The notes below the pieces were generated by a model, which was not told where the DNA came from, ran no database searches, and saw only the letters and a list, made by a program, of their open reading frames with translations. A DNA stretch of 64,000 bases from Antedon mediterranea (lineage: Eukaryota > Echinodermata > Crinoidea > Comatulida > Antedonidae), in assembly GCF_964355755.1 (NCBI RefSeq), contig NC_092678.1, positions 20,432,922 to 20,496,921 of the forward strand, in the 5' to 3' direction. Both the position numbers and the translations under genes were made by a program. Below, piece by piece: positions 19,501 to 64,000 of the stretch (positions are counted from its first letter, which is position 1; every line of letters starts with the position of its first letter).

Positions 19501-21921
19501 CAACAATAATAATTAAGATAATAGCACAAGATTTTCCACTATTATTTGTCTCTTTTCAGCTCACGTTAATCTTGTAAAATAACACGCCAAGTTTTAAGGT
19601 AAGCCTAATAATTTATCTTCTTACGTATCTTTATATCAGAGGAAATGGAATTTAGGTTTGATTCCCATATACAAGTTCGTAAGCGTAACGTAATCGATTT
19701 GACCAATGACGGCGCGATGGATTATCCGAACTGTCGCTTGTGATTGGTCAACTTACGTTACGTCCTAGTGGGAACCAAGCCTTACACTATTCGGGTCGGG
19801 TCGGGTAATATGTTACCTCTTTACTACTGTATTGTATTTCTGTGTTGTATTATCAAATCATAATATAAGAGTTTCAAACAAGGATTTCGAAATTTCTTTT
19901 CACAAACCAGATGAACAATATCCTTTTACATCTTACACTTCTACCGTATTCTGGGTTAAAATGTCATACCAAAAAATGCATCAGTAGTCACAAACCTGCA
20001 TCTAGAACTCTTGTGACCACCGTGGCATCAAACTCTGGTACATATCCTTCCATTACCCATGATCCTCCCATCATAGGTACCCCAGAGACGGCGATGGTGT
20101 CTTTCATTACAATGCGTTTACCTCTTAGTATTCCCTTTGGCGCTCCAGAAATATTAGTTTTCCAATACCTGCAAGTAAACCAACCTAATTAGACAATTTG
20201 TTTGGTAGGTACCATTAACTACCCGAATAATAGCAAAAAATCAAACAGTGCTGAATCTTTTATGTTTCTTTTTATGTTTCTTATATCTGTATAATGCCAT
20301 CTCTGTATGATGTCATCTTCTCTGTAAGATGTCATCTCTGTATGTTATTATCTCTGTATGATGTCATCTTTGTATGGTGTCAGCTCTGTGTGATGCCATC
20401 TCTGTAAGATGTCATCTCTGTATGTTATTATCTATGTATGATGTCATCTTTGTATGGTGTCAGCTCTGTGTGATGCCATCTCTGTACGATGTCATCTCTG
20501 AATGTTATTATCTCTGTATGATGTCATCTCTGTGTGATGTCATCTCCATGTGATGTCATCTCTGTGTGATGTCATCTCTGTATGGTATTATCTCTGTATG
20601 ATGTCATGTCTGTATGATGTCATCTCTGTATAAATGTCATCTCTGTATGTGTTGTCAACTCTGTATGGTATTATCTCTGTATGATTTCATCTCTGTATGA
20701 TGTCATCTCTGTACGATGTCCTATCTGTATGGTGTCATCTCTGCATGATGCCCTCTCTGCATGATGTCATCTCTGTATGGTATCATATCTGTATGATCTC
20801 CTAATGTCATCCGGCTGTATGATGTCATATATCTGTATGAGGTCATCTCTGAATCTATGTCTTGTTCTTCCTTATTTTATTTCATTCAACTTTATTGGTG
20901 ATCGTTCTTAGGAGATGCCATGTTTCTCAATTATTATTCTTTGGTAAGATACTTTTCTCTTAGAACATAGGATGTTGCTAGTTGTCGGTCTTTGTATTGT
21001 CTAACTAAATGTCAACAATAGCTATGACACTCGCTCGATGTTATATTTGGTGTCATATTATAGGCCTATCTATTTATACCTACCACGCATTTAGTGGATT
21101 TTCCTCCGCCGTAGGTCTGTAACCCGGTAGTCTCGGGTACTTCACTGGAAGCGTAATCTCCGGCAGCTTTTCTATTTCGTTATAACAGCCAATGATATCC
21201 TTCATTAGATCCCTGTATTCGGCTACTTCTTCTTCACTTAGATCAATTCCGATTCTCTGGGAAAGTTCTTTCGTCTTTTTTATACTAGGTAAGCGAACTG
21301 GAGGTGAACTGTAGGGTACATCTGAAACAGATGATATGTGTTCGACTGTTAATAATTTTTCGAATGGACTTTTGTTTTATCCTTTTGATGAACATGGAAC
21401 GTTTTAGATTTTTAAGAAAATTCGTTGATTTACTGTGTATTGACACTAGTAATACACTTGATTTTACATCTGTCAGTTGATTGTGTCTAACTAACTCTTG
21501 CAAGTCATATAAAAACAAGTTTAGCTGCATTAAATAAGATACTCTCTGTCACTAGAAGAAATGCACAATTCACTTTATGCGTACATACTTTCCGACAGAT
21601 ATATCGTTTATTAAAAGTATTTTAATACAGCTAGACTGTTTATAGATGACTTGCGATAGTCAGTCAGACTCTATCTACTGACAACTGCAGAATAGGGTGA
21701 ATAATGTAAAAAATTAAAATTAACAATTGACAAGGCCTTCTTTTTTTTAGCATTTTTTTTTTCAATAATGGATGGATTCTTACATAATGTTAATGAATTA
21801 ATTAAATATATGAATCTACCGCAGTTTACTGCAGTACGAAAGAACAATTATTGGAATAATTCTAACATTAAGGCAGTGAATACAAAGAAAATATAAATTG
21901 TAGGCTACACTTACGTGCCAT
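16596..21921 (-). CDS. Amidase (amidase-signature family), copy B, ten exons, 512 aa
   Basis: Exons in transcript order: 21915-21921, 21084-21321, 19996-20168, 19304-19443, 18683-18958, 18284-18449, 17801-17863, 17303-17403, 17033-17219, 16596-16783. All GT-AG, phases close, 1539 nt in total. Seven of the ten exons have exactly the length of their counterpart in copy A; exon 1 is one codon shorter, exon 6 one codon shorter and the C-terminus five codons shorter. Triad: K104, S179, S203, with the [11 protein letters not shown] signature intact. Start: ATGGCAC, then the donor GTAAGT. This is a tandem duplicate; both copies look functional. Exon 3 shares a run of well over 60 identical bases with copy A while the introns are unalignable, which suggests selection or gene conversion limited to exons. 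Confidence 0.93.
17447..17540. mobile_element. MITE family C copy
   Basis: Inverted ends AGTCGCGTGC and GCACGCGACT enclose AGCTCACTATGT and a GGTC/GGTCGG-rich stretch. In an intron of amidase B. Same family at 22572-22654 and 61436-61526. Confidence 0.8.
18500..18618. mobile_element. MITE family A copy
   Basis: AAGCTGTGTCTACACAATCAA to TTTTAGTCAGAGCT, with the core CATGGGCACATCACAT. Intron of amidase B. Confidence 0.75.
19657..19785. mobile_element. MITE family B copy
   Basis: Ends in GTCCTAGTGGGAACCAAG, with the paired TGACCAATGACGG and TGATTGGTCAAC inside. Intron of amidase B. Confidence 0.75.
20285..20865. repeat. 16 bp minisatellite with higher-order structure
   Basis: About 35 copies of a 16-base unit close to ATGATGTCATCTCTGT, in the intron between exons 2 and 3 of amidase B. 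Near 20330-20530 blocks of five variant units (about 80 bases, including TGTTATTATC, TTTGTATGGTG and CAGCTCTGTG) recur in the same order, showing higher-order amplification. Confidence 0.95.
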
Positions 21922-29300: not shown

Positions 29301-32300
29301 TTTATTATTGCGGACCACCATATTTTAAGATACAGTTAATTCGAGATTTCAAAAAGATTTGTGACGTCATCAAATATATTGCAACGTCAATAGGCATGAT
29401 AGGCTATATAGGATAGTAAATTATTACAACTTGGACAGGCACACAACAGAAAGATATACAAGTAAACGCACTGGTCATTTTTCCAAGTAGTAAATTATAA
29501 CATTGATACTAACAATGCGTTGTTCTAGAATTATAGAAATATTTTCAACTCAGTGGGAAGCTTTCTAATTACAGGTTACTGCACCTCATAGGAAGTACTC
29601 TGACTATATTTATAATTTAAAAAAATAAATATTTTAAAAAGAAAGTTCAAGCGAGCAGGAAAACAATGCGCAAATATATAGCGTGTTGGAATTATTGCTT
29701 TAAGACGTCGTCTACGGTTACATTCATTATTGTCGTCGCAGTCGCCGCCGTCCTCGTCGTAGTGGTTATAATTGTGGTCGTCATTGTCGCCTTCGTTATC
29801 ATTGTTTTGTATTCGTCATAGTCGTCGTCCTTTTCGTAGTGGTTGTCATGGTTGTGGTCGTCATTTTTATCTTCGTCATCTTTGTCTTGTGTTCGTCATA
29901 GTCGTCGTCGTAGCGGTTGTAATTGTTGTGGTCGTCATTGTCGTATTCGTCATTGTCGTCTATTGTATTCGTCGTCGTCGTCGTCCTCGTTGTAGTGGTC
30001 ACCATTGTCATCTTCGTCATCATCATCCTCTTTGCGTTCGTCATATCGTCGGCGTCCTCGTCGTAGTGGTCGCCATTGTCATCTTCGTCATCATTGTATT
30101 TGTATGCGTCATCGTCGTTGTCATCACCATCATCGTCGTCGATGTTTTCGTCACCAATATTTACAATAAATGTACAAACCGTTTTCTTAGTGTATTGCGG
30201 AACGGGTGAGATAACAGAGCTTCCTTTTAATATGACGACACCAGCCGCCGCCTCGTCTTCCTTCTTTTTATAATATCGTAGTTCCTCCGGGAACAATACA
30301 AACCACCGGGTTCTCCAGTTGGTACGAACATGACCCTACGAGTAAAAGGTTTAAATTCAATGTAAAACAGTGTGTGATCTTAATAAAATAAATAGGAACG
30401 GATGTACGTGATTCCGAATGGTGATGTGATGCAATTGTATACCACTCTGCTCGGAGAGGATCTTTTGTATCCGTAATATCATAACCCATACATTACATTT
30501 ATGATTTAAATGGTTAATAACTTCCCTTCCTATGCGTTATTCCGTACTATTTCTTTGAAGAGAAATAATGGAAAAATGCATTTATTATTATACCAATGTT
30601 GGCGATCTAGAAATGGAAACGTGTTGATGAAGCCATAAAGATATAGCGAGATTACTCCCGGTTAAAGTATTTTATTAATTTTATAATTTTTTTTTGGAGC
30701 GGTTAACCGACATCTGCTTGCTTCCGGTGATGCAAAAACGTCAGCTTATAACTTACGGAAACAATATCTACAATTGGCAATTGATATAGGATTCTGATAA
30801 ACTTTGAACACGTTCAAGCTAAATTGAATTTTGTGTTAGGCCTGTTGTGTTAAAAGGTCTCTCTCTGACCACCGTCCCATCCGACCTATATCTATACAAA
30901 ACCTCCCGATACCATTAAGCCGCAAATTGTTGGTTGTGAGTCCAGAAATGCCCGTTCACACAGGGACACCTTTGATTAAAACAATGGCTAAAGGCCTATT
31001 TACACAGACGAACAATAACAGTAATGAATATTGAGTTCCGCTCAGAATAGATACAGATTCTACGTGGGATCGGACAAGCTACGCGGTTTTCCGCTTACCC
31101 TTACCGCTCGTCTGTGTAAATTTGGCTTAACAAGTGCATTCAATGTTGTGTTTGCAGATGTGTTATGACAAAACAAAATAGTGATGATTATATAAAAATA
31201 TATAGAAATATACAGAAATGATTTTAATTAAGCTTATTGTTATAAAATGCTGGGATTATACAGGTCGTTAGAATTAATCTATCTTCACAACACAAAAAAA
31301 CAGAAAAAAAAATTTTAAAATTATACATACTTATACAGTGCTTAATCATTGCATTCCGGAGGTGATTCTTTTCTGCTGGAGTGGTTGTAGGAATTAATAG
31401 ATTTAATCATTGGCCATTCATTCATACAAATTCATTACAATAACAAATACTATAGTATTGCATTTTGTTTACTCTTAAATCAACGTTGAAATTTCAACAA
31501 TTGAATGTCAAACAAATACTCGTTATAACTATTGGTTCTGCCGTAACAATTTAACTTTGACATTTTCGTGGGAACAATAGCAATAATTGCGAACCGCATG
31601 TAGGTCGGAAACTTAAGTAAACTCAGACAAGTGTGACAGAACAGATTAATTTATACACTTGATATTGGTAAAAATAGCCTACAATACAATTAAAAAAACT
31701 AATTTGACACTTCTCTATGTGACCTGATTGCCTTTTATATCGGACCTACACTACTGAAGTTATTATCGTGAACCCACTATGAAACTCTGTCTTCACTATG
31801 AAACTTTATGTGACAAAAAATGTGATGTGCCCATGATGATGTCATATCACTACTATATTTAGGCACATCATTTTTCAAACTAATTGATAGTGTAGATAGG
31901 GCTTTACTGAATATCACTTCGTTTCGTTTTTTCGTTTATTTATTTTTTTTTCCACTCACTTATATATATATATATCATTTACATTTACATAACATATATT
32001 AAATGTGGATGGATGGAAGTCACAGTAAGTTCACTGAACTTTAAGTCGTGACTCCCGTATGCCTATAAGTATACTAACATTGCTACAGAGTAGACTAAAA
32101 TATGAATATATAATAGTGAAAGTACATAAAATCAAAAAAAAAAAAAAAAAATTAAATTATAGAAGTTAAGATAAATTACTAACTTTATATTTTAGAAGTT
32201 TGTATGAGTTCCTTCTCCTAAGGTTTTCCCCATTAAAATTTCAACAATATTGTACTCATAGAATATCTCCGATTTTTATCAAAAGAGAGTGTGTGGGTTC

Positions 32301-34105: not shown

Positions 34106-36284
34106 ATGGCAGCAAAGGAAAATGATTCACCCTCCCCTGCTTCTAAAAAAGGAAGTCTTGAACATAGATCTTGTCTTAGAAGATTAGAATTTGCTTGCAA
34201 AGAAAGTAAGTTTTGGAACATTTTAATTTGATTCATATCTAATCTATATATTTGTGTTGTTTTCCTAATGAAATAACACAGTAAGAATTTCATTATTATC
34301 ACAGTATATTAATTATAGTACTGACAGTAGGTACACTTAAAATACTGTAAATATCCATCCCATCATGCAGCATGCTACAGAAACATGCCTATAATATCCC
34401 ATCATGCACCATGCTACAGCAGCACGCAAAGTCATGACACATTAACTTCAATAGCAAGTAACTTTTTTCTTTACATTTAACAAAAATGTTTTAAATTGTT
34501 TCAGGTCCTTTTGTAAAGTTCATGCTGAAATCTATGGAAGCACACGGATGGTAAGTACTGTAATTTACTTCACTGCAGTTACTGCAGTAACTATATTGCT
34601 GTAGATAACCTGTTTTAGTAATATGCAATTATGTAACTAACTTTTTTTTGTAAACATAAACTAAAAAATGTGGTTACTGCAGTAACTGCACAGTAGAATC
34701 ATTTTGACATTATCCTCAAGTACTGTAAACAGTATAATGCACTTGTCACTATACGACCCCCGGGAGAGTTGCCTCATTTGTCCGATGTGCGTCATACCTT
34801 ATAAATACAATGACGCACCCCTGTGTCAAAAGTGACTTACCTTTAGTTGACCATGACGCACCAATTTAGACGCATTGTGACTTGTTCATGGTATTGTGGT
34901 GGTACACACCATTGTTCATAGATGTGAAGTACTCTACCATAGGTTGGGTTTTTTGATGCAACCCTGCGTCAATAATTGTTTGTAAATGACGCACCTCTCC
35001 CGGAGTCGTATAGTGGGTCATACAATTTAAGTGCATAATGCTTACCAAGTTGTACGAATGATTAATTTAATTTTTGTCTTTTCAGTCCTGTGAACATATC
35101 TCGGCACATTTCCTGCGAAAAATGCCCCGAGGACAGTATTATCAATGGCGGATTTGATCCTTCAAATGGACAGATTGTACTCTGCGAAAACAGGGCGCCA
35201 TCACAGCGTGTTGTTAGCACATTACTCACTCACGAACTCATTCACGCATTTGATTTCTGTCGTGCTCACGTAGAGTGGGACAACTTAAAGCATGTTGCCT
35301 GCACAGAGGTAAGTTTTTTTTAAATCTTTTGTGTAAAAAAATATGCTTATACTGTATCTATATCACAGTATCACAGCCAAATTATGTGATACAGTATGTG
35401 TCACATGGGATGCCTGTATCATAAGCTTAACCCTAACAAGCACTACATTTGGTGACACTATTACAGAATGTGCCTACTGTATATACTGGACTCATGATGG
35501 CATATGTGAAGATACAGTATATAGTACAGATAATCGGGTTGATTTTTTTAAAGGCCATTTATTAATAGATTATTTCATTTGTGAATTTTCAGTTGTACTT
35601 GTTTTTGACCTTTAACCTCTGATCTATTTGCAGATTCGTGCTGCTAGTCTTAGTGGAGATTGTTCGTTTGTTAGCCAGAATGTCTATAGTCACAAATTTG
35701 GTTTCAAGAAACATCATCAGGTGCTTTTATAATTTTTAGATTTTAAAATACTGTAACTCAGTATCTCAAACAAATACTGTAATAGAGCGTCACATATGTA
35801 TCACATGTGACACCTGTATCATAAGCTATTAAGCCTAAACCTAGTTTAACATACTACAGTCGCCATACTGTATGATGCATATGTGACACTTTATTTTAAA
35901 ATCTGCCTATGATACTAGACAGATGTGGAGATAAAGAATTGTATAGAATATTGTGTGACTATGAATTTTTTTATATAAATTTCTTTAAATATTTACATAT
36001 ATGTTGCAATTATTCATATTCGATAGGCTATACACAAACAATTCACAAACAAAAGGAAAACCATATGTGTGATTATCTTTCGTTTCTTTCTTTAGAATTG
36101 CGTTCGGGAACGTGCAATGAAATCGGTTATGTCGGTGCGGAATATATCTAAAGAAGACATTGACAAAGCGATGGACGACGTGTGGGATATATGCTTCAAC
36201 GATTTTGAACCGTTTGACAAAATACCAAGAAACAAAGAAGAAGTTAAACGTATGTCACGTCAAAAATACAATTATGATTTATGA
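34106..36284 (+). CDS. ATP23: ATP23 mitochondrial inner-membrane metalloprotease, five exons, 214 aa
   Basis: Coding exons: 34106-34205, 34505-34550, 35086-35308, 35634-35720, 36096-36284; GT-AG throughout, phases close, 645 nt. The peptidase M76 motif is H98-E-L-I-H102, followed by AFDFCR. Cysteine-rich flanks (C49, C59, C62, C82, C107, C121) are as in ATP23, whose fold is held by disulfides in the intermembrane space. The family member in yeast processes Atp6 and helps assemble F1Fo-ATP synthase and degrade lipid-transfer proteins; the animal protein was also named XRCC6BP1/KUB3. Start ATG 34106 follows AAGG and is the first in the exon. A polyadenylation signal AATAAA lies at 36318-36323, 34 bases after the stop. 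Confidence 0.96.
34571..34695. repeat. Palindromic MITE family D
   Basis: CTGCAGTTACTGCAGTAACT at the left and GGTTACTGCAGTAACTGCA at the right. In ATP23 intron 2, starting about 20 bases after the donor. Confidence 0.7.
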
Positions 36285-42000: not shown

Positions 42001-45000
42001 AAGAGTGTCTGGTATAAGGAAAGTCTTCTTTAGACATACAGTCCAATTCCTGTAACTGCCTTCTTTCTTCCCTGACAACAGTGCATTGATACCTGACTCA
42101 TTATCCCTATGACACACCCATGACCTCCCCATGACCTCACTGACAAAGAAAGAATACAATCAATGTCAGAAGACGCTGATAAAAGGTCAGAGTTTGAAGA
42201 TAAATGCCCAGAAAGATGAGGAAACACATCTTGTGATGGGCGAGCCTTAAAAAAGAGATTTAAAAAGATATCTAGTGCATACCTTTCATTTTTCTTCTCC
42301 ACCTGTTTGTTAGCGTTGGCTACTTGAGCATTCATTTCTGAGAGTTCCCTCATTAGATGCATCACCTGTCCTCTTAAGGCACGCATGTTCTCTCCAGTAC
42401 TTTGATATCGTGGTTCCTATATTATGAGAAATAGACCCTGGATTACCACACAATTCTTAGTTGTATACTGAATAAAGAGGTATAGGTACCTCAACATACA
42501 GTATAGCCATAACATCGGCACAGGTTCAAGACTTTCCTTAAAGTAATACTGACCTTAGCCTCTTCTAGTTCTCTAGAAAGGTTGTCTAGTTTCTTATTCA
42601 GTTCTTCCACAGTTAGCTCATGTTCTCTTTCTCTCTTGGTCATTTCTTTGTCAAGATTACTGCTTTTGTATTCCAGTCTACTTTGATTTCTAATCATTTC
42701 CATCTCAAGATCGTGGCATTTCTTGGATTCGTTTCTCAGTTTTTCCTGTAGACTAGAACATTTTTCTCTTTCCGTTTTGAAGAGCATCATCAAATTCTGT
42801 ACTGTTTCATCATTTGATTCCTTCTTGTAACTCTTAACACCAGTACTTGGAGCACTGCCAACCAAGACTTCTGTAGACTGAGTTAAAGTTTTAGATGATG
42901 GCGGTGACTTCACAGTTACTTCTGGTATGTTTGCAGATTGTTGCTGGTGAGAAGTCTGACTCTTCACCAGTTCATCCTTATCCATCTGAACTTTGTCATA
43001 GTTTGCACGGAGTCTTTCAAACTCTTTTGACTTCTCTTCCTGGATGTGTTGATACCTAAGAACAGAAGCCTTCAGAGCATCGATCTCTGTCTGGTTCTTT
43101 GAATGCATATTTTTCATGCTTGCAAGATCTTCTGTCAACTGAGTATTCAGCGATGTCATTTTGCCGAGTTCATTTTTCATCGATGCAACATTGTCTAGGG
43201 AGCTTTCTGGCAATGCACTTTCTGATGTTCCATTTGATGTTTCTGTTGATTCTGAGATCTGCAATAGCAAAGTAAAATAGTAATACTTGTAGTACAAATA
43301 ATAAATAAATAAATAATTGTAAATGTCCAATTAAAATAAATCATTTTTATTTCTTTCGACGAGTTAACATTCAACTACGACCCATGCCGCATTAAAGAAT
43401 AATTAATTTAAATGAGTTTTGTCCTACCATGTTTGGAGAATGTTGAGCTAATTTCATTTCCGATAACTGTTTGGCTATCAAGTCGATCTGTTCATCTTTA
43501 CATTTTAACTGTTCGCTCATCTCCGCAACCAATGCGTTTAACTTGGTCATTTCTTCGTCAGTTGTGCTTGTTTCTTTTCTCTCCTTCTGTGTTCCGACCT
43601 CTTCAACAGTTTCTGTATTGCTTGTGTCTAGCTTATCTGTCTCTATTTCGTCTTTGATTTGTAATGAGATATGCTCAAGGACTTTTTTATATTTTGGATC
43701 TTTTTCCTAAAAAAATGTTTGATAGTTCAAATTATTTGCCCTAAAGGAAATTCATGTTAACATACAATTGTTCGAAATTAGTTAAAGGTTATTAACACAG
43801 AAACAAACTGTATATGACTATGTTTTACTATTAGCATCCACCTACAGTTAAGAGGTTTCATAGGAAGGGAACATAGTTCTGGTGAATAACATTCTAAAAT
43901 AGAATTCAACCAATCAATGAATTATAAACAATATTTTGAATTTTCTTTATTTGGTGGTTAAGATGCTTAGCTACCGATCACAGGGTCATGGGTTCAAATT
44001 CTGTCAGATGACAGGATTTTTTCTCATGACAACAACTCCACTCGAACCACAGACTTGCCACTTTAAGGAAGGCAGTGAAATAACTCACAAATCGCAAGCT
44101 TTCCTTGGCAATCTGCCAAAAATGAGAATTTTTTTTAAACGAAAATAATTTAAGATCTAAAACTAGTCAAGGACATACTTGAGTTTTATAAAAGATTGTT
44201 GAAATTTAATGTTACGTTTGAACAAAAAAAAAATTAATTGTGGTTGTCATTTAATAATCTGTACAGGAGGTGACTACATCCGTTTGTAACTCTTTAAATA
44301 TTGCGCAAGAATTCAATGGCGTGTTTTTGTATATTAAACCATACTTGTTGGTCCTTGAGGCATAATTAATTGGCAGAACACCAGCATACAGGTAGTTACT
44401 GCAGTAACATGACATGGATCTGCCAACCAATTATTTGTGATTTTTTGTTACGAATAATTTAATAATACTTTTTTATATTTTTAATGTTTTTTATGCGTGC
44501 ATTATGTATTTTTATACCGCTTTGTATAGCATTATAGTACTTTTATATTTGAATTTCTTAGTTTGGATTGTCAGGCAAGCTGGCTATAATAATTGAGTTT
44601 ACTTTTGACGTCCATAGCCGACGACGAAATTCTTTTCTTATCTTGTATGTTATTGTATATTGTTATGGCTTAATAAATGAATGAAAAAAAAAAACCATTC
44701 ATTTCAAAGGCCTAACTTAAGCTCAGGGTCAAACGGGTTGTTTTCATTTTCTTGTTATTTAAAACAATTTTGTAAAAATGAAAATGAATACACAGAAATC
44801 TTCCATTTTTCAATACATAAGTATTATTAATTAATTAAAAAATATATACCCTTTCAATAATTTGCCCGAGTTGTTCCAAGATTGATTCAATACGTTGTTT
44901 ATAGCTGTCATTTTCTTTTCTTAAATTCAGAATCATCTCCTTTGCTTGTTTGAACTTTGCGTCAAACACTTCTACATTTTTTTCCTGATTAATTCTCATC

Positions 45001-46684: not shown

Positions 46685-52999
<6,315 letters not shown>

Positions 53000-55370
53000 A
53001 ATTGACCAATAAAAACTATTCATAAGACTATTATAATTAGGGTATTTCCCTTATATTAATGTATGCGTACTGCATACATAATTAGGGAGTTGTTTTGTGT
53101 TGACATACTAATTAGGGGATTTCCCTATGCTATTATTTCACTCTCATTACTAACCCATTGATGTTTAGTTTTAGATGTTTCTTTTTAAATGTTTACCATC
53201 TTTTCGTTTTCACCATGTCAACTTTTCTTCGTTACCGACTCAGCTAAAAATGTTTCTGCAACATAACATGTAATATTTAAGATATTATTTCTTGCTCGGG
53301 ATAATTATTTGAGATAGTAAAATTTTCATTCTAATCGGTAAAACAAATCTTCTCTATGGAAACGTTTTGCCATGTGGCCGACGACACGCCCGTAAGGATA
53401 GCCAGTCCTCCCTCCAAAATACTGTAAACAAATCAAAATAAATTTAATAATAATTTTACTTTAATATGCCCATTTTAGCACTACTTTACTTGTGTGTTAT
53501 TCATGGCGTTGAGTAATTTTAAATATTGTTTAGTAATTAAATTCTTTTCCTTTAATTTTTTTGTTCTGTTCAAACATGAATTGACTTCCTTATTTAATAA
53601 ATAATTTATTTGTTATGTTATTGTAAAATGTGCTACTTAAAAAAAAAAATTATCCCTACGCATATTTCTACCAATACTTATACGATCGCCATTTATATTC
53701 ATGCGTTTATAAATTAAATTAAAAGAACAGAAAATGTTATATTTTTTGTGGAGTTGTTGGATATGAAAGTGATTTTAAAGAAAAAACAGGAATTAATGTT
53801 ATGCTTTATACTATCTTCTTGCAAAATTAAATACAGTGTAAAAACTATAAGAATAATAGGTGGTCTGCTACTGAAGGTTGAGCCATCTAGTTAATTTCAC
53901 GACAGTAATATATAGTAGTACTGTAAATGCTGTATGTATCAACAATTTATGGTTACAAAAGTCATGTTTGGAAATAAACTGATAACAAAGTTTTGAAATA
54001 TGTTTTATGTTTATTCGTCCATATATGGACATGATAATGTCATCACTACCATATGTGACAATATTGCTACCATATTTGGACATATCACACTTTTTTGTCA
54101 CATAAGGTCTGTCTACACTTTCAAACTTTGTGTGACAACAAAATGTGATGTGCTCGTATATGGACATGATGTCATATCACTAACCATATTTGACAATATC
54201 GCTACCATATTTGGGCATATCACACTTTTATTTTCAAACTCGATTGCTAGTGCAACAGACAGAGCTTAAAGAATTGTGTCGATATTTATTTTGTGCTTAA
54301 ATTTCCATTTTTTTATTTTGAGGCGCAATTTATTTATTTCAACAATATTTTACAGGGTAAAGCCGAAGCTAATCAATAGGGGGACCCTCACAAAAATACA
54401 ATATGACAAGACAAAAACAACACAATTAAACAATTAAAATAAAGCAACACAATAATAAACAACAACATCCCATGAAAAAAATGATTAAACAAGAAATATT
54501 TCTTACAAAAAACGCTGATCGACATTTTAAAATTAATCATTGTTCTTTCTTCAGATAAATTTATTAAAAAGATGTCCCTTAATCCCAAAAATACATACAT
54601 ATCAAAGATAGTTCTTTAATTAAGAATCACATGCCCATTTAAATATGGTCAATTTTGAACTTTAATGTGCTGCGTTTGTGACCTAAAGGCATGCAACTGA
54701 ATACCCTCTAGAGACATTGTGATTTCAAGCAAAGAGTAATATATATTCTTTGCTTTAAGTGAGAAAATTCTTTCCAGTCTGTCAACCAATCAAAGAGAAT
54801 CCAAAATCGTTCAACCATAAACTCTCTTTTCCCATAGTTCAGCAGCTGGGATCTATAAATTATAGTTGAGTTTACAAATTAGCTAAAACGTCAGCCTCTA
54901 GTACTATAACTGCTGCTTGCTTTCAGCTTATAAATGAGTCATCTCTTGTGACGTAGCGGACTAGAGCAGCAGCGTGAAAAAAAATTGTGTATGTATTTAA
55001 TAACTAAAACCTGTTTGATAGTTGGACGATGCTTAGCTAGTGCGGTTTCACCTTTTTCTATTAATATTCCTACGCCCCCCCCCCCCCCCCCCACTCCTCT
55101 TCCTTACAACACGACATGTGTCTTCACCCTATATTTCTGAATGTACCAGACGGCTATTCTGGGTTATGTTTATCCGTATCCATTAAAAAAAAAATGATTT
55201 CAAAATTAATATTTACTAGAAATGTTTGAGAACACTGCCTATTTCTCATGAGAATATGCTAAAAAGTCGCTGGTTAAACAGAATGTTACAATCCTTCTTC
55301 AATGAATATACACAAATATTGATTGATTTCGTCTATAATAATCATTATTACCCTAGTAACACGGGATTTC
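53000..55370. other. Intergenic spacer downstream of SEC61A
   Basis: Starts with the SEC61A 3' UTR. Two MITE A copies at 54005-54270. AT-rich elsewhere, with a poly(C) run at 55076-55092. No gene recognised. Confidence 0.55.
54005..54270. mobile_element. Two overlapping MITE family A copies in tandem
   Basis: The first (to about 54110) is half a copy ending TTTTTGTCACATAAGG. The second runs GTCTGTCTACACTTTCAAAC to GCAACAGACAGAGCTTA. Both have the CACTACCATATGTGACAATAT core variant, so the pair seems to come from one duplicated subfamily. Confidence 0.7.
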
Positions 55371-55379
55371 CCCCATACC

Positions 55380-55614
55380 CATTGTGGAAGAACACTTACA
55401 TATTCATAATGTTGTAATACATTTGAATTCTTTTGTTTTTATAATGTTATTATTCAATTAACTTTATTGATTTTGGATAAAAACAATTATATTATAGGGT
55501 TTCTGTTTTTACGATACCTTAGACTGACATCGTTGTAGTAGATTCAACACTTATAGTATGCGGCAAAATGATCTGTATATAAAATTAATTTTAACTCAAT
55601 TTCTGTATTCCATC
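55380..55614. promoter_or_regulatory. Conserved upstream block of the RING microgene array, copy 1
   Basis: A block of about 190 bases (AATTAACTTTATTGATTTTGG, TAGGGTTTCTGTTTTTACGA, CACTTATAGTATGCGG, GATCTGTATATAAAATTA, TTCTGTATTCCA) recurs before copies 2, 3, 4 and, diverged, 5. The TGTATATAA-type motif is 35-45 bases before each ATG and could be a TATA box. Confidence 0.5.
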
Positions 55615-55848
55615 ATGCCTTGGAATTGTATCATTTGTATGAATGATATAATTCTAGGCTTCTGGTAGTGCTCTGACTGCACATGTGCAGCTCACTTGGA
55701 GTGTATACTGAAATGGTATACCGAAAAGCGTAGTTGTCCACAATGCAGACGACGTCACCGACGACGTGGACGTCCTCCCCGCCGAGCTCTAAGAGCTCCC
55801 CAACGAGCTTCTCCTCACTGGGTTGTAGAATTTGATTTCTATACCTAG
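55615..55848 (+). pseudogene. RING-v microgene copy 1, in-frame TAG at codon 18
   Basis: The 78-codon frame matches the intact copy at 60379 throughout: C5-x2-C8, C22-x-C24-x2-H27-x2-C30, C41-x2-C44, then an Arg-rich tail and the shared end FDFYT. GAG (Glu18) is TAG here. The remaining 60 codons, including a longer Arg/Pro-rich tail (RRRHRRRGRPPRRALRAP), stay fully open. So either the nonsense change is recent or the site is read through; a recent pseudogene is simpler. Confidence 0.75.
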
Positions 55849-55856
55849 TAAATTAA

Positions 55857-55883
55857 AAATCCATTTTTTTTTAAAATGGATTT
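55857..55883 (+). terminator. 3' stem-loop after RING copy 1
   Basis: AAATCCATTTT (55857-55867) pairs with AAAATGGATTT (55873-55883), starting eight bases after the stop. The equivalent stem after copy 3 uses CCTT/AAGG, a compensated change. Could be an mRNA 3' element; role unknown. Confidence 0.55.
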
Positions 55884-55888
55884 GAAAA

Positions 55889-57140
55889 TTAACAAATATT
55901 AGAAATTTCCGAGAGCACTGCCCTATTAGAGTATTACTATGAGAACATGCTAATATATTCGCGCCATTTAGACAGGACGATTTTGTGAATAAAACAAAAT
56001 AACCGGTACAGCATGTTACAATCTTTCTTCCATATTGACTTTGATTTTATTGATACTATTTCAGCATTTTATATTCTACTTTGGCTATTCCCAAAATGGT
56101 ATGGAAACGTCACAGCAATAAACACATTTTTACGAGAGGTTCAACTGTAGTTATAATGTTAAACAAGACAACCAATGCTATGTAATCTTTCAGTCATATT
56201 TAGTTATTGTTTTCGAAAAGCACGTTTGGCTTATTGATGTACCCTCTTTATTGCCCTTTGTATTAGGCCTACTTGTTTTGTAATACAATTTTTGTCATAA
56301 CTAAAAGTGAGTTCCATCACTTCTCCCCACTTCATACCACATAAGTCTTCATCTTATGTTCGCATGCATGTACCGAGAATAAGGCCTACCTCAAATTGTG
56401 CATTATTAGAGGATTAAACTCCATGTTCTCATGTTTCGGTTTGAAAACCATGCATAGAGCCTACCTTTGACAGTGTCCTTATTTATTTGACATTTCTCCT
56501 TTTGGAACACAGTGGTTAACCCGCACAAACTGCTGTGGGGTGGTAATTATACAAAACAGTTTAGTATTAGAAGTGTTTTTCTTCTACGCCTAGACGATTT
56601 TCCATATGCCCTTTTATAGGGGAATGCGCTTGTAGCCTTTTCATAATGTAGTACTCTATTTTACACTATTACACAAAACATTTAAAAGAACGTGTAAAAT
56701 GACGTTTGCCAGATAAGTAACATATTTGAAAATTGCAAAACAATACAGAGTTTTTTTTTTATTAAGCGCGGAACATTTTCTTATGCAGGGCCGCATCTCT
56801 GAATGTCGCTCTATTTTTATCGTTTTGAATAATCAATTGTCCACATAAATGTAATGGAATTCAATATGGTAGACGCGATGTTTTAAGGTTGTTTATGTAA
56901 ACACAGCAATCCATGTAAAACCAAAGAAATACACCAGTGTGTGTTAAATCATATATAATTATCCAATTATGGACAAACAACAGCGCCCTCTAGTCCCTAT
57001 TATGGACAGAAAGTAACCAATTGTGGACAGATTTCACCAACCCTATTTGCAAAAATATCAGATTATTATTTCGTATTGTTCTCTATACCCATGCACAATT
57101 AATGTCTGAATATTCTGATTGTTCTCACGGTATTTTCTTC
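55889..57140. other. Spacer of the RING array between copies 1 and 2
   Basis: Contains unit-specific sequence shared with the spacer before copy 3: the block from about 56130 (GAGGTTCAACTGTAGTTATA, a Tigger-like end) to about 56570 (AACTGCTGTGGGG, AGAAGTGTTTTTCTTCTACG) recurs at 59515-59960. It is followed by 500 bases unique to this unit. Confidence 0.6.
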
Positions 57141-57383
57141 CATGCCATATATAGGAGACTTTTTGCATATTCATAATGTTTTACTAAATTGTAATAATTG
57201 TGTTTATGTAGTATGTTTTTATTTAATTATCTTTACTGGTTTTCCAAACAATTTTTTATATTATAGAGTTTCTGTTTTTAAGAGATTTTTGACTGAAACT
57301 GTAGGATTTTGTTTAACACTTATAGTATGCGGTAAAATGATCTGTATATAACATTTATTTTAACTCAAATTCTGTATTCCACC

Positions 57384-57494
57384 ATGGCTAGGAATTGTAT
57401 CATTTGTTTAAGTGATATAAGTCTGGGCTTCTGGAAGTGCTCTGTCTGCACTTGTGCAGCTCACTTGCAATATGACTCATTGTTCTTATATTAA
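57384..57494 (+). pseudogene. RING-v microgene copy 2, truncated
   Basis: Starts CCACC-ATGG and matches the family for 28 codons (NCIICLSDISLGFWKCSVCTCAAHL), then leaves the family sequence and stops at codon 37. The last two zinc-ligand pairs and the Arg tail are gone, so it cannot fold as a RING. A break or replacement at about 57467 removed the 3' part. Confidence 0.8.
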
Positions 57495-59270
57495 TTATAC
57501 ATTGTTTCTTAATTCTTAACATTCCCTTAAATTGTAGAATGTTCCTATAGATACTATCCTACTGTGATTAAGGAATGAGTCATTTATTACACTAATAATC
57601 ACTTATTACGTTAATAATCAAAATATGGATCGTTTTCAGTTGAAGATTGTAGGAATCCGTCAACGTTATTCCTTTTTTAGGCCTACTTTTTATTCCGTGC
57701 CAATGCACACAAAATAAAATGTCGCAAGTCATCTATATATAAATTTACGTAAAGGCAAAATTCGGTAAATCGCGCCTTACTTCTAGAATTTTTACTCGAT
57801 GGTATATAAAGTTGGTTCGTACTTTCGGTACTGATTTTAACCAACTGATGTAACCCTGTTTACTAATTAAATTAAGTTAGATAATTAGTTATTGACGATT
57901 AAAACGAATTTAGGTTCAACGATTTGCCCCAAATAGGGGTGTTTTCCGATCGTGGTATACACTGTCTAATGGATGTCCATCTTGAAAAATACCCGCCACA
58001 AAAATGCGAGGAGGCTTCGCATTTTCCTATCTCCTCCTACGATAATTGTTTTTAATAGCTGAAAACCGGTTGAACAGTTCGAGTACAGCATCATAATGTT
58101 GAAGACAGGCCGATTTTCTTTAAAAAATACTATTTTGATACATTTAATATACGTTTTTACAAATGTATTGATTTGTGATGAATGGAACATTCCAAATTAT
58201 TTGGTTTAACCATAGAGGTTTAGATTTATGGGCCCCCTTGGAGATTAAACATAAATAGTATTGCAATGCTGTACAATACTGTTAAGGTATTAACCACTTT
58301 TGATCGCAATTTGAATCGCAAATTTCTTACTGTGAGTGTTGGTACTGTTAGATGTAATATAAAAATATATACAAATAAACTTTATTACTGTGAGTGTGGG
58401 TAGGCCCTACTGTTATATTGTAAACATATAATATACAAATAAACATTCCAAATTATTTGGTTTAACCATAGAGGTATAGATTTAGATTTATGGGCCCCCT
58501 TGGAGAATAAACATAAATAGTATTGCAATGCTGTACAATACTGTTAAGGTATTAACCACTTTTGATCGCAATTTGAATCGCAAATTTCTTACTGTGAGTG
58601 TTGGTACTGTTAGATGTAATATAAAAATATATACAAATAAACTTTATTACTGTGAGTGTGGGTAGGCCCTACTGTTAGATTATAAACATATAATATACAA
58701 ATAAATAAACGTTATTACTGACAGTTGCTTCTCAACGTTTGTATTAATTAATAATTTAAAAATATATAAACGTCGTAGTGGTGTATCGTTACATGTACTT
58801 TACTATTTCAATCGACTATGACAGTGATAGTTTTAACAAAGTACCGTATTAAATCGTAAATGTTTTACTGTATTTAGTGGTATATTATTTATAGGCCTAT
58901 AACACATTAAAAACAATATTTCGTTACTGAGTGGATAAGAATATATTTTAAAATGTTTCCTCTTTGTACCTATCTTCTTCCCCCATCCCTCAACTCTTAA
59001 TGTTACATACAAAACACAAATTGGGTTTGTTTAAATGAGTCCAAATAAAAAAATTTGACTCATTTTGTTTCTCTCTCGGAAGTAATTCCCAGGGTGCTAA
59101 TTTTGGTTGACTACATAAATCTTGTGTATATTTATTCGTTTCTGTAAACGACAATGTAATATAGTCCTGCGGTACGTACATTTGAAATCTCCATTTTTTT
59201 CTCGCTGGAAATAAATTCGAGAACCATCTGTGGGCACGACCTAGATGGTACGCGAGCGAAGCTAAAGTGT
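57495..59270. other. Spacer of the RING array between copy 2 and the 59275 relic
   Basis: Bases 57590-57700 (AATAATCAAAATATGG, AACGTTATTCCTTTTTTAGG, CCGTGCCAATGCACAC) recur at 63485-63590, showing another shared unit block. It also holds the 256-base tandem duplication. No gene seen. Confidence 0.55.
58191..58703. repeat. Tandem duplication, 256 bp unit, two copies
   Basis: TCCAAATTATTTGGTTTAAC at 58191 and again at 58447. The two copies are nearly identical (small insertions ATTTAGATTT and one-base changes), so the duplication is recent. Confidence 0.95.
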
Positions 59271-59345
59271 GCACGATGACGGCTCACTTGACGTGTATAA
59301 TGCGTTGGTATACCGAAAAGCCTGCTATCCGCAATGCAGCGCCTC
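59270..59345 (+). pseudogene. RING-v microgene relic
   Basis: GCTCACTTGACGTGTATAAT...TGGTATACCGAAAAG...CCGCAATGCAG matches the H27-to-C44 part of the family, with a one-base frameshift after Lys. Nothing of the 5' part remains. A sixth, decayed array member. Confidence 0.6.
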
Positions 59346-60378
59346 TTTCGTTCTTGTGTCACGCACATTCTTTCGACCCATTCTTAGGCCTAGGCCTATA
59401 TGAATAAAACGTATTTATATCCACACGTTATACATGTCACACGCATTATTTATTTTGTCTATTGTTGTGTCTCATAATGGTGTTTTAATGCCACTTTTCC
59501 CGGTCCCGAGGGTGGCCGCTTACGGGAGGTTCAACTGTAGTTATATTTTAAACAAGACAACCAGTAATGCTCTTTCAGTCATATTTAGTTATTGTTTTCG
59601 AAAAGTACGTTTGGCTTATTGATATGCCCTTTAATATGTGTTCTGTATTAGGCCTACCTGTTTAATGTAATACAATATGTGTCATAACTAAAAGTGAGTT
59701 CTATCACTTCTCCCCACTTCATACCAAATAAGTATTCATCTCATATACCGGAAATTAGGCCTATTTCAAATTGTGCATTATTAGAGGACTACTGTTAAGA
59801 TCCATACTTTCCATATTTTGGTTGTAAATCATGCATATTATAGACCCTACTTTTGACGGTATCTTATTTATTTGACATTTCTCCTTTTGAAGCCGCACAA
59901 ACTGCTGTGGGGCGGTCATTATACAACATAGTTTAGTACTAGAAGTGTTTTTCTTCTACGCCTAGGCCTAATATAAATTATGTTTTATTGTATGTTAAAC
60001 CACCAGAACGTATTTATATCCACAAGTTATACAAGTCACACGCATTATTGATTTTGTCTATTGTTGTCTCTCATAATGGTGTTTTAATAGTATAACATTA
60101 TTATTATATAGTTACATGGGGTTTTTCCCCCATGCCCTTATAGAGGAGACGACTTGCATATTCATCATAATTGTGTACAATTATTTTAATAATTGTGTTT
60201 ATGATATACGTTGTTATTTAATTATCTTTAATGAATTTGGAAATAAATAATTTTAATATAGTGTTTCTGTGTTTACGAGATTTTAGACTGAAACCGTTGT
60301 AGTAGATGTAACACTTATAGTGTGCGGAAAAATGATCTGTATATTAAATAAATTTTAACTCAAATTCTGTATTCCACC

Positions 60379-60591
60379 ATGGCTTGCAATTGTATCATTT
60401 GCTTGAATGATATAATGCTAGGCTTCTGGGAGTGCTCTGACTGCACATGTGCAGCTCACTTGGAGTGTATACTGAAATGGTATACTAACATGCGGAGTTG
60501 TCCACAGTGCCGCCGACGTCCACGTAGACGGCGTCGGTGTTCTCGACGAGCCCTCCCTCACTGGGTCATAGAATTTGATTTCTATACTTAG
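60379..60591 (+). CDS. RING-v-type zinc-finger microprotein with Arg-rich tail, 70 aa (intact copy 3)
   Basis: Ligands in RING order: C5-x2-C8, x13, C22-x-C24-x2-H27-x2-C30, x10, C41-x2-C44. The fourth ligand is Cys and the fifth His, the C4HC3 order of RING-v (MARCH-type) fingers, with the RING-typical W34 and CPQC end. Then come 14 Arg in residues 45-58 and a conserved tail PHWVIEFDFYT. Start codon in an ideal context, CCACCATGG. No membrane segment, unlike MARCH ligases. Expected to be a zinc-binding protein, possibly a minimal E3 ligase; the basic tail could bind nucleic acid or drive nuclear import. Single exon. The family is otherwise unrecognised by me. Only intact copy wholly in the window. 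Confidence 0.7.
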   Translation: MACNCIICLNDIMLGFWECSDCTCAAHLECILKWYTNMRSCPQCRRRPRRRRRCSRRALPHWVIEFDFYT

Positions 60592-60596
60592 TGTTA

Positions 60597-60626
60597 AAAA
60601 TCCTTTAAAACTTCAATAAGGATTTT
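60597..60626 (+). terminator. 3' stem-loop after RING copy 3
   Basis: AAAATCCTT (60597-60605) pairs with AAGGATTTT (60618-60626), six bases after the stop. It matches the position of the stem after copy 1, with an A-T pair replaced by T-A. Also present after copy 4 (62155-62176). Confidence 0.5.
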
Positions 60627-60999
60627 AAATGTACCTAATATTAGAAATTCACATAACTAGAGAAGAACTTTAGGAGACCTCTGTTTGTTTGTTTATTAAT
60701 TCTTTTCCACACATCAATATACGTTTTACTTCAATATATTTGTGTAAAAGGGCATTCCCTAAAGTGTAGACTTTCCCGTGAAATAACGAGGCGCAAGATT
60801 ATAAGATAGGAATTTACCACTGTAGGCCTATACTAGCTTCCATTAACCGAAAACATAAATGTTGTTGTGGTGGTAAGGTGAAACATTACGGTACTTCTTT
60901 CCCCTCCTAATCTACAGCCAGTGCAATTACTTTAAAGCATTCGTGCTTTCTATATTTGGCCATAAAACAAACTTTAGTGGACCAGCGTATGTAAATCTG

Positions 61000-61150
61000 T
61001 AACATGCATTAGCCTCGAGGCCTAACACGCACCTACTTTCCACCACTCCGTTCGCGAACTCCGCGCGCTGTGTAAATGGGAAAAGCCACGCGGTTTTTCG
61101 CTTACAATTACCGCTTACCGTTACCGCTCGTTTGTGTAAATTGGCCTTTA
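61000..61150. mobile_element. MITE family G copy
   Basis: Right end CCGCTCGTTTGTGTAAATTGGCC and CCACGCGGTTTTTCGCTTAC match 30950-31135. It sits at the junction of the two duplicated array units. Confidence 0.55.
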
Positions 61151-61435
61151 GGCCTACATGTTTAATGTAATACAATATGTGTCATAACTAAAAGTGAGTT
61201 CTATCACTTCTCCCTACTTCATACCAAATAAGTATTCATCTCATGTACCGGAAATTAGACCTATTTCAAATTATGCATTATAAGAGGACTACTGTAGGAT
61301 CCATACTTTCCATATTTTGGTTGTAAACCATGCGTTAACAGGCCCTACTTTTGACGTTGTCTTATTTATTTGACATTTTCACACAAACTGCTGTGGGGCG
61401 GTCATTATACAACATAGTTTAGTAGTAGTGTTTTT

Positions 61436-61526
61436 AGTCGCGTGGACGCGACTCTATAGTTCACTATGTCTGTCGGTCTGTCTGTCGGTCTGTCTGTCGG
61501 TCCGGTATGCATTGTAGCACGCGACT
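61436..61526. mobile_element. MITE family C copy
   Basis: AGTCGCGTGG to GCACGCGACT with CTATAGTTCACTATGTCTGTCGG inside. It splits the GTGTTTTTCTTCTACGCC sequence that is continuous in the sister unit at about 59945, so it inserted after the duplication. Confidence 0.85.
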
Positions 61527-61949
61527 TAATGGCTGTTGGCCTTGTTCTTCTACGCCTAGGCCTAATATGTATATAAATTATGTTTTATTGTATGTTAAAC
61601 CACCAGAACGTATTTATTTAGTTATACATGTCAGACGCATTATTGATTTTTTCTATTGTGTTTGAATAGTATACTGTAATTGCTATGGTTACATGGGGTT
61701 CCACCCCCCCCCCCATGCCCTTATAGAGGAGACGACTTGCATATTCATAAGTTTGTACCATTATTTTGTGTTGTGTTTATGATATACGTTGTTATTTAAT
61801 TATCTTTAATGAATTTGGAAATAAATAATTATAATACAGTGTTTCTGTTTTTCCGAGATTTTAGACTGAAACCGTTGTAGTAGATGTAACACTTATAGTG
61901 TGCGGAAAAATGATCTGTATATTAAATAAATTTTAACTCAAATTCTGTA

Positions 61950-62146
61950 TTCCACCATTGAATGATATATTGCTAGGCTTCTGAGAGTGCTCTGACTGCA
62001 CATGTGCAGCTCACTTGGAGTGTATACTGAAATGGTATACTAATAAGCGTAGTTGTCCACAATGCCGCCGACGTCCACGTAGACGGCGTCGGTGTTCTCG
62101 ACGAGCCTTCCCTCACTGGGTCATAGAATTTGATTTCTATACCTAG
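61950..62146 (+). pseudogene. RING-v microgene copy 4, start deleted and nonsense-mutated
   Basis: A deletion of about 23 bases joins CCACCAT to TGAATGATAT, removing the start codon and the first Cys pair. In the rest, TGG (Trp17) is TGA. The remainder through FDFYT and the stop (62144-62146) is well kept and close to copy 3, so inactivation is recent. Confidence 0.8.
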
Positions 62147-62411
62147 TGTTAAACATCCTTTAAACTTTATAAGGATTTTAAATGTACCTAATATTAGAAA
62201 TTCACATACCTAGAGAAGAACTTTAGGAGACCTCTGTTCAGAGGATAGGAATTTACCACATATTTTTCCATTATTTTTGTTGCCGAAAACATAAATGTTG
62301 TTGGGGTGGTAAGGTGAAACATACGGTACTTCTTTCCCCTCCTAATCCACAGCCAGTGCAATTACTTTAAAGCATTCGTGCTTTCTATATTTGGCCATAA
62401 AACAAACTTTA

Positions 62412-63005
62412 GTATCATATCATATCATATCATTTATTTAGCCAATATACAGAACAGTACAAAAAAAAAACAATACAAAAGTAAGTCAATGAGGCCGGAC
62501 AACCTAAAAGTTATAAATAAAAATAACCGTCGAGAGGCTCTCCACATCGAAATACTTACATAAAATGAATAATACATGGATTCTATTAAAATTGAGATAA
62601 AACTATAAAATTCAGCAATGGGTTTTTATAAAAAATTGTTAATTTAAAAAGATAGAATTAAGAAAATATCTTTAAAATATACATATGTTCAGATTAAAAC
62701 AGATTATTAAAATATTTCTTAAGGCTATGCTTAAAACAGTTTATATTAATTAAAAGTTGGTTGCAGAGATCCGCAGGAAGATCTCTAAAATGTCTAACAA
62801 AAAAATTAAAGACAGAGTTATGAAATAAATCAGTCCGGGCTATAAAATTATTGCGCAACTTAAGGTTATTAACATGTCTGCAATTAATAGATAAATATTT
62901 AAAAACTTTAACATCATATAATTTGTACATACCAGAGTGGACCAGAGTATGAAAATATGTACTTAGAAGCACCAGATATAGTGCTTAAAGTCTGCGTAAC
63001 ATATG
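62412..63005 (-). mobile_element. LINE 3' fragment, minus strand
   Basis: The frame ending at 62694 (reading leftward from 62972) resembles a CR1/L2-type reverse transcriptase C-terminus (RTDLFHNSVFNFFVRHFRDLP, INCFKHSLKKYF). The 3' end is at 62412, marked by a (ATCAT)n tail of the kind these LINEs leave. It interrupts the array tail at TTTAGT. Confidence 0.75.
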
Positions 63006-63174
63006 AATACATTTTGTATTTTGTAGGAGAGTATAAATTTCTATTCAATTTATGTCTCTCTATCAGCCACTGTCAATGCTTTTATTTTATTTATTTTATT
63101 TTTTATTTTATTTTATGTCTTTAGGCAATGTGGCTAAGGATTACCAATAGTGAATTAATCACTGTCCTATCAGA

Positions 63175-63400
63175 TAGGTGGTAATCCCCCTGATACAGGG
63201 GCTATTTTGTGAACCAGTTCACCGGGGTAACCCTCTACTCTTTTCGAATAATGAACTGGGTTCTTTAAAGTGCACACAGGTTATAACTGTGTACATTGGA
63301 CATACGGTTTATAGTCCTTATCCGAGAAGACTTGTTCCACCACCAGAACTAGGAGTGAGTCGGCCTCGAACCCCTGCCGATATTGTTGGCTCTTAAGGTA
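63175..63400. repeat. Interspersed repeat, relative of 36650-36840
   Basis: TTCACCGGGGTAACCCTCTAC, GTTCTTTAAAGTGCACACAG and GGTTTATAGTCC in order, followed by GAGTGAGTCGGCCTCGAACC. Unassigned family. Confidence 0.6.
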
Positions 63401-63484
63401 CGGTAATCATGTAATAATGCGCATTGTGTACAATATTTTTCAACCAGCAAAATCTATGTATAAATTAACAATAACTCATTAAGT

Positions 63485-63944
63485 TAATAATCAAAATATG
63501 GTTCGTTTCAGTGGAAGATTGTACGAATCTGTCAACGTTATTCCTTTTTTAGGCCTACTTTTTATTCCGTGCCAATGCACACGATATAAAATGTCGCAAG
63601 TCACAGTATTTTATTTCGTCTATTGTTATTTGTATTGTGTGTTTTCTAAAAATATGTGTCGGTGTTTATTGGGACTTTCCCCCATACCTTTTCAGAATGG
63701 ATGCATACATATTCATAACATTAAATAATATAGCTTTACAATATTTTGTTTTGTTTTTGATTATTGACCTTCACTGATATTGAAAAAAAAATTATTTTAT
63801 GCACAATTACTATTTTCGAAATATTTTACATTGAAACTGTTGAATAGGATCTAACACTTGTTGTGTTTGGTAAAATAAGCTGTATTTAAGATACATTTAG
63901 GCCTAAACATAACATCTGTACCTCGTCCCTCCGAAAGAAGGAAG
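63485..63944. promoter_or_regulatory. Upstream block of RING copy 5
   Basis: Begins with the shared AATAATCAAAATATGGTTCG block also at 57612 and continues with a diverged form of the array upstream block (TTATTTTATGCACAATTAC, CATTGAAACTGTTG, GATCTAACACTTG, AAGCTGTATTTAAGAT) before the ATG at 63945. Confidence 0.5.
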
Positions 63945-64000
63945 ATGGCAGAGCAGTGTATTATCTGCCTGCAGGCTGTAACTGATCATCATAGCCCTAT
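63945..64000 (+). CDS. RING-v microgene copy 5, N-terminus only (runs off the window)
   Basis: GAAG-ATGGCAGAGCAGTGTATT encodes MAEQCIICLQAVTDHHSP. The CIICL of the family is kept, but the rest of the N-terminus and the 5' leader differ from copies 1-4, so it is a more distant paralogue. The 3' part is outside the window. Confidence 0.65.
   Translation, partial: MAEQCIICLQAVTDHHSP

Follow-up and report, generated by a model that had tools for sequence, protein, structure and literature searches.

Single-ORF RING microgenes with a C-terminal tag form a multi-locus family in the crinoid Antedon mediterranea

Introduction

The RING-H2 ubiquitin E3 ligases, the zf-RING_2 proteins of Pfam, have a C3H2C3 set of ligands with the pattern C-x(1-3)-H-x(2-3)-H-x2-C. 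Members of this class (synoviolin, RNF126, Arkadia, RNF165 and EL5) are, by profile and by fold, the best described counterparts of a family of very short genes that we report here from Antedon mediterranea. The family forms a tandem array in a 64,000-nucleotide stretch of contig NC_092678.1 (C9), called the window below, and has relatives on other contigs. It has the frame CxxC...HxxCxxxW...CPxCR in common with the RING-H2 ligases. In contrast to them, it has Cys/Cys at C-x2-C spacing where RING-H2 has C-x-H, it contains no other domain, and it carries a C-terminal tag of its own. The RING-H2 pattern was absent from all seven family proteins.

C4HC3 ligands like those of the family are found in the variant RING of NSE1 (SMC5/6 complex) and, by count, in the MARCH and viral RING-v (RING-CH) proteins. 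The NSE1 spacing, a C-x2-C third pair followed by x4-H-x2-C, resembles that of the family, whereas RING-v fingers have the spacing C-x-C-x7-H-x2-C, which differs from it. Ubiquitin-ligase activity of NSE1 is reported in some studies but was not observed in others (PMC8750328). A Drosophila survey calls every C4HC3 RING "RINGv" (PMC3166285), and in this loose sense the word fits the family too.

Ten copies on four contigs

Six copies, c1 to c6, were found between 55.6 and 64.0 kb of the window, all on the + strand, which bears out the original prediction of five or six copies of about 70 residues.

55615-55848, + strand: c1, A-type with Arg-rich linker; full length, frame broken by a single in-frame TAG
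57384-57470, + strand: c2, A-type finger; only the first 29 codons present
59258-59388, + strand: c3, decayed fragment whose nearest relative is c6 (84% and 68% over two pieces)
60379-60591, + strand: c4, A-type; intact open reading frame (ORF) of 70 residues with RING, Arg-rich linker and tag
61946-62146, + strand: c5, A-type; start region lost by deletion, one TGA, tag intact
63945-64000, + strand: c6, B-type without Arg-rich linker; start of a 72-residue ORF running past the window end

In tblastn searches of the window, the c4 protein matched c5, c1, c2 and c3 with E values of 2e-42, 4e-39, 6e-14 and 4e-5, which excludes chance, and a weak match fell on the first c6 codons at the window end. 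With family members as queries, c3 was placed as a decayed relative of c6. The whole c6 ORF (C9:20496866-20497081, 72 residues) is intact in the genome and 47% identical to c4. Of the pattern predicted for the array, one intact copy among several broken ones, tandem duplication and decay held, and the number of intact copies rose to two of six (c4 and c6) once c6 was read past the window. No further copy was found by tblastn in the 10 kb from C9:20496400 onward.

Sequence blocks between the genes are also related; for example, the block that follows c2 (57593-57731) has a 92% match in the one preceding c6 (63466-63603). Such block homologies suggest that the array arose by duplication of a unit with one A-type and one B-type gene, c2 going with c3 and c4/c5 with c6. 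Separately, a tandem duplication of 262 bp, with copies about 96% alike, was noted between c2 and c3 (58186-58705).

Protein searches of the genome (354 Mb, 18 contigs) with c4, c6, m11a, m11b and m7 as queries, in which other RING proteins also matched, located four further family places outside the C9 cluster.

C11:15427333-15427560: m11a, frame open from ATG to tag
C11:15502870-15503160: m11b, frame open from ATG to tag
C10, from about 24395594: m10, broken, with RING and tag in different frames
C7:6303048-6303554: m7, frame open from ATG to tag, with two complete RING-like modules and one incomplete before the tag

In all, ten copies were found on four contigs, a lower bound because the search scores only the best candidates. 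Five ORFs retain at least one complete finger plus the tag. No ORF of the family has an intron, and in the single-finger members, which are 70 to 97 residues long, finger and tail fill the whole protein.

Ligands, linker and tag

Seven fingers were aligned, those of c4, c6, m11a, m11b and m10 plus two from m7, leaving aside c1, c2, c3, c5 and the remaining module of m7. Their ligand order is C-x2-C / C-x2-C / H-x2-C / C-x2-C, and these eight Cys and His are the only columns invariant in 7/7 modules. The best Pfam match of all six proteins tested is zf-RING_2. The prediction of a free-standing RING microgene with eight C4HC3-type ligands is upheld. The finger starts at residue 5 or 6 of each intact protein. 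Family-wide, the third ligand pair corresponds to C19 and C22 of c4, and residue 24 (c4 numbering) is Cys solely in c1, c2, c4 and c5. The ligand C22-x-C24 proposed originally thus does not hold for the family; it is possible within the A-type subgroup, because c4 aligns there with the C-x-C-x2-H-x2-C of ZNRF1, whose RING is the best single match of c4 in the PDB (E 4.4e-4). ZNRF1 differs from the family in that the Cys at residue 24 is absent from members other than the A-type, and in that its RING sits in a longer protein.

The C-terminal tag has the consensus W[IV]xx[FY][DE]FYx and reads as follows.

c4 and c5: HWVIEFDFYT
c1: HWVVEFDFYT
c6: HWVDEYDFYS
m11b: SWIRTFDFYV
m11a: GWIRTYDFYT
m7: SWIRTFDFYT
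m10: SWIRAFEFYT, in another frame than its RING

A DNA pattern of the tag had 12 matches genome-wide, and a reversed control pattern had 10. Eight of the 12 are the eight members that reach the tag (c1, c4, c5, c6, m7, m10, m11a and m11b). The remaining four, on contigs 3, 5, 7 and 11, fall short of the control's 10, and no RING was found beside those on contigs 7 and 11 (401 and 501 bases inspected).

Between finger and tag, the linker is Arg-rich in c1, c4 and c5, hydrophobic in c6, made of TPS repeats in m11b, and short and polar in m11a, and the distance from the last Cys to the tag Trp ranges from 17 residues (c4) to 43 (m11b). The Arg-rich tail, predicted as a trait of all copies, is thus confined to c1, c4 and c5; none of c6, m7, m11a and m11b has it, and c2 ends before the linker position. 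As judged from the sequences, it is the C-terminal tag and not the poly-Arg stretch that defines the family, the latter being the linker of one subgroup, and the family is a multi-locus set of single-ORF RING microgenes composed of a finger, a freely varying linker and the tag. A literature search, with subscription papers mostly outside its reach, found no RING family with a W[IV]xx[FY][DE]FYx tag; the one paper found with the letters FDFYT concerns a synthetic peptide.

Class of the finger

zf-RING_2 (PF13639) exceeded its cut-off of 27.3 in four of the six proteins tested (c6 34.9, m11a 33.3, m10 34.2 and m7 42.9). A family profile run against the PDB gave 124 sequences at E<=0.05; among the best 60 of the 124, synoviolin ranked best (1.4e-8), RNF126 scored 2.9e-8, and the first 30 rows were all RING proteins or established RING ligases. 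At 1.5e-4, NSE1 with its C4HC3 ring (2ct0) was also among the matches listed, far below the RING-H2 proteins. In the fold model of m11a, residues 1-50 had a predicted local distance difference test (pLDDT) score of 75-85, and residues 53-76, the tail, scored below 50. The first Foldseek match of this model was RNF165 with UbcH5b~Ub (E 0.011, probability 1.00, root-mean-square deviation 1.7 over 49 columns), and its nearest solved structures were RINGs, several of them bound to a ubiquitin-conjugating enzyme (E2) or E2~ubiquitin; the predicted m11a fold is, at moderate confidence, that of a RING. The Pfam matches, the ranking by profile and the m11a model together indicate that the finger is a RING in frame and in predicted fold, with C-x2-C as its third ligand pair.

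Predicted E2-contact features are present in c1, c4, c6, m10, m11a and m11b: the helix Trp and, as we take it, the Ile/Val before the second Cys, the CPxC and the Arg after the last Cys. The helix Trp is linked to E2 contact in PMC3166285.

The MARCH affinity of the original prediction did not survive. RING-v identity was rejected, as the C-x-C-x7-H-x2-C spacing is absent from 7/7 proteins, and Pfam RINGv (PF12906, cut-off 21.6) reached 17.8 in c6 and 20.8 in m10 and was unlisted for c4, m11a, m11b and m7. The NSE1-type pattern (C-x2-C third pair, x4-H-x2-C) occurred in 7/7 proteins, c1 being read with X at its stop. Unlike the family, NSE1 carries a winged-helix domain (WHB) and acts within a complex; no winged-helix domain was found beside the finger by Pfam (25 of 30 families listed for c6). 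In the same genome, contig 1 encodes an N-terminal finger, ECMVC...WNCQHC...FHIKCIKRW, that we take to be NFX1-like. It has the WxCxxC and CIxxW arrangement in common with the family, but its frame of 354 codons lacks the tag, and it matched at E 0.043 only. The c4 protein, as sole query, had no match in PHROGs, and five proteins searched against NCBIfam gave only two weak c6 matches, under the cut-off.

Selection on the ORFs

The ratio of nonsynonymous to synonymous substitution rates (Ka/Ks) was computed by the Nei-Gojobori method, which gave point estimates without confidence limits. For m11a/m11b it was 0.15 over RING plus tag (65 codons; Ks 1.7, near saturation) and 0.13 over the RING (46 codons), and for c4/c6 it was 0.37 over RING plus tag (55 codons) and 0.48 over all 70 codons. 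Because Ka/Ks is low in these two intact pairs (below 1 in both, the check that had been proposed for intact copies), the proteins look as though selection has kept them, as in a real gene family. Values that involve broken copies are a mixture of past constraint and decay: 0.29 for c1/c4 over RING plus tag (54 codons; RING 0.39, 43 codons), 0.30 for c5/c4 (62 codons; RING 0.24, 36 codons), 0.33 for c2/c4 (29 codons) and 0.48 for c2/c1 (28 codons). The idea of "genes in conflict or dosage games" found no backing, as these short alignments carry no sign of positive selection.

Proposed function and alternatives

The general type of these proteins is familiar, a RING finger and probably a ubiquitin ligase, with a tail whose sequence appears to be undescribed. 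We consider it fairly probable that they are small E3 ligases whose common tail binds a shared partner, with local birth and decay of copies in the array. The RING would bind an E2 enzyme, and the protein would act as a small E3 ubiquitin ligase reduced to a RING plus an address tag. Because the m11a tail is predicted to be disordered and yet the tag is conserved, the latter may serve as a short linear motif through which all members dock on a single shared partner or substrate. The linkers would set location, with the Arg-rich A-type linker favoring nuclear or nucleic-acid binding. The C9 array would have grown by local duplication of the A-type plus B-type unit, most copies decaying later. 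In a bolder version, which we hold to be rather unlikely, the family would be a lineage-specific ligase toolkit: the constant tag would address one hub, the linkers would diversify freely into short polar stretches, TPS repeats, additional RINGs or poly-Arg, and the poly-Arg A-type would be retargeted to chromatin or RNA, with fast turnover on C9, possibly in the germ line or immunity.

Such genes point to an E3-like protein of minimal size, made up of a RING and a tag of ten residues and maintained by selection at several places in one genome. Should the tag be a docking signal, it would name both a short linear motif and the hub that it targets; should it activate the RING, the protein would be a complete ligase of very small size. 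Annotation easily misses or misnames single-ORF genes as short as these.

Several observations weigh against a family of small ligases. Five of the ten copies are broken (c1, c2, c3, c5 and m10). zf-RING_2 stayed below its cut-off in c4 (19.4) and m11b (24.4), the c4 fold model is poor (mean pLDDT 59.4), and no PDB match of the m11a model reached E 0.001 in Foldseek. In m7, two modules of three have no Arg behind the last Cys, and one of these is also without the Pro. The Ka/Ks values are point estimates, and they rise to 0.68 for c1/c5 (46 codons) and 1.01 for c3/c6 (19 codons), which fits what is expected of dead copies. Binding modules of the PHD or C1 kind can have C4HC3 fingers as well; a C1 domain from protein kinase C delta was among the profile matches listed at 0.0011, and m7 exceeds the Pfam C1 cut-off (31.1 versus 26.5). 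The family might consist of non-catalytic readers or decoys, whether as PHD/C1-like modules or as RINGs that occupy a partner without ubiquitin transfer. The C-x2-C third pair, which we take to be shared with PHD and NSE1 fingers, agrees with such a role, as do the C1 score and the degenerate modules of m7. However, RING proteins come first in both profile and fold searches, and CPxCR and the helix Trp are retained in c1, c4, c6, m10, m11a and m11b, so we give this role only a small chance. The tag could otherwise be an activation tail working in trans, its aromatic residues contacting the E2~ubiquitin bound to the partner protomer in a RING dimer. Contacts of this kind are made by the tails that end MDM2, IAP and RNF4, which are closely spaced to the RING. 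The tag is C-terminal and aromatic, presumably with some likeness to IAP tails, and its pattern stands behind this RING and elsewhere only at chance number; its variable distance from the last Cys is at odds with close spacing, and we judge such a tail improbable.

The broken copies would also be explained if the whole family were decaying relics with no member expressed, which we regard as extremely improbable given five ORFs with at least one complete finger plus tag and a Ka/Ks of 0.15 over deep divergence. Nor does it seem at all probable that the family is a transposon coding sequence or an endogenized viral gene spread by an element, even though the ORFs are intronless, lie on four contigs and include broken copies, and a viral structure library gives many RING proteins (best E 0.001). 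Repeat searches covered the flanks of c4, m11b, m11a and m7; their match counts are lower bounds, and absence of a match does not show a sequence to be rare. The 1-kb pieces around m11b, m11a and m7 matched mostly themselves in the genome. Two of the three pieces that did otherwise speak for an element: a 244-nucleotide imperfect inverted repeat (73%, a self-match on the other strand) at C11:15502416-15502659, about 200 nucleotides upstream of m11b, and 136 nucleotides upstream of m7 that recur once on contig 3 (95%). The third is 44 nucleotides beyond m11a, common with contig 7. Against an element, the remaining flanks match themselves, the DNA upstream of c4 recurs in the C9 cluster only, the C9 copies are tandem duplicates, and no relative was confirmed in viral contigs, by single-protein and profile searches, or in prokaryote genomes. 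Transposon origin found no support, as DNA searches of the four flanks revealed no dispersed element carrying the genes; the proposed check for a known repeat or transposon ORF likewise gave no match in what was searched.

Flanking DNA

Blocks upstream of the array genes are related to each other.

55396-55614, + strand: c1 upstream block, common to c2, c4, c5 and, more weakly, c6; TATTCATA at 55401
60123-60378, + strand: c4 upstream block
63671-63944, + strand: c6 upstream block, 66-75% identical in pieces to the c1, c2, c4 and c5 blocks; TATTCATA at 63710

The DNA at 60100-60378 matched four genome places, namely itself and the corresponding DNA of c5, c2 and c1, none of them outside the C9 cluster. 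A TATA-like box lies 39 nucleotides upstream of the ATG in c1 and c2. In the cluster alignment, the longest run without variation is CATATTCATAA (c1 numbering), which a 3-nucleotide insertion splits in c4. The 8-mer TATTCATA of this run, which we take to resemble a POU-type site, occurs in the window at 55401, 57168, 61742 and 63710, and it stands 209 to 309 nucleotides before the ATG in seven of nine members examined; c4 has TATTCAT only, and m7 has none. On the coding strand within 450 nucleotides of the ATG, it was found in three of the four dispersed genes (m11b at -241, m10 at -256 and m11a at -309, not m7) and in 161 of 3462 background windows. The binomial estimate for the dispersed genes is about 4 in 10,000, for an 8-mer picked after looking. 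Other 8-mers of the run occurred in two of the four dispersed genes (ATATTCAT), two of four (ATTCATAA) and none of four (CATATTCA).

Hairpins were found shortly past the stop codon of three members.

55857-55883, + strand: c1, 11-bp perfect stem just past the stop; 0/500 shuffles and 9/1500 background windows as strong
60597-60626, + strand: c4, 9-bp stem just past the stop; 6/500 shuffles and 34/1500 background windows as strong
L012 3579-3603: m11a, perfect stem shortly past the stop; 5/500 shuffles as strong

Their stem letters differ, and those of c1 and c4 lie at the same place after the stop. The c1 and m11a hairpins are also remarkable in folding energy (z -2.08 and -2.98), whereas that of c4 is not (z -0.86). 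A hairpin of m10 is weaker and further downstream (15/500 shuffles), and in c5, c6, m11b and m7 no hairpin exceeds chance (90, 448, 295 and 377 of 500 shuffles). A 3' hairpin was therefore rejected as a family trait, being strong in only three of eight members tested, of which c1 and c4 are close relatives.

Other features of the window

Further reading frames were noted in the rest of the window.

5232-6116, + strand: rhodopsin-type G-protein-coupled receptor frame, 295 codons open, Pfam 7tm_1
6.4-21.4 kb, - strand: amidase gene exons, seemingly present twice, as 9621-9956 and 18659-18958 resemble each other; the latter, the sole one scanned, matches Pfam Amidase
29802-30335, - strand: PH-domain frame upstream of the array
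35066-35320, + strand: M76 peptidase frame upstream of the array
42494-43330, - strand: coiled-coil-like frame without Pfam match, which we presume to be GM130-like
49538-49801, + strand: SecY/Sec61-alpha frame before the array

Scanning the 64 kb against Rfam (gathering threshold) and for tRNAs gave no match. Units resembling ATCACTACCATATTTG occur in a short repeat at 54019-54280, which matches many other places in the window. At 20286-20797 lies a minisatellite with the 16-bp unit TCTGTATGATGTCATC in about 32 copies and a higher-order period of 80 bp.

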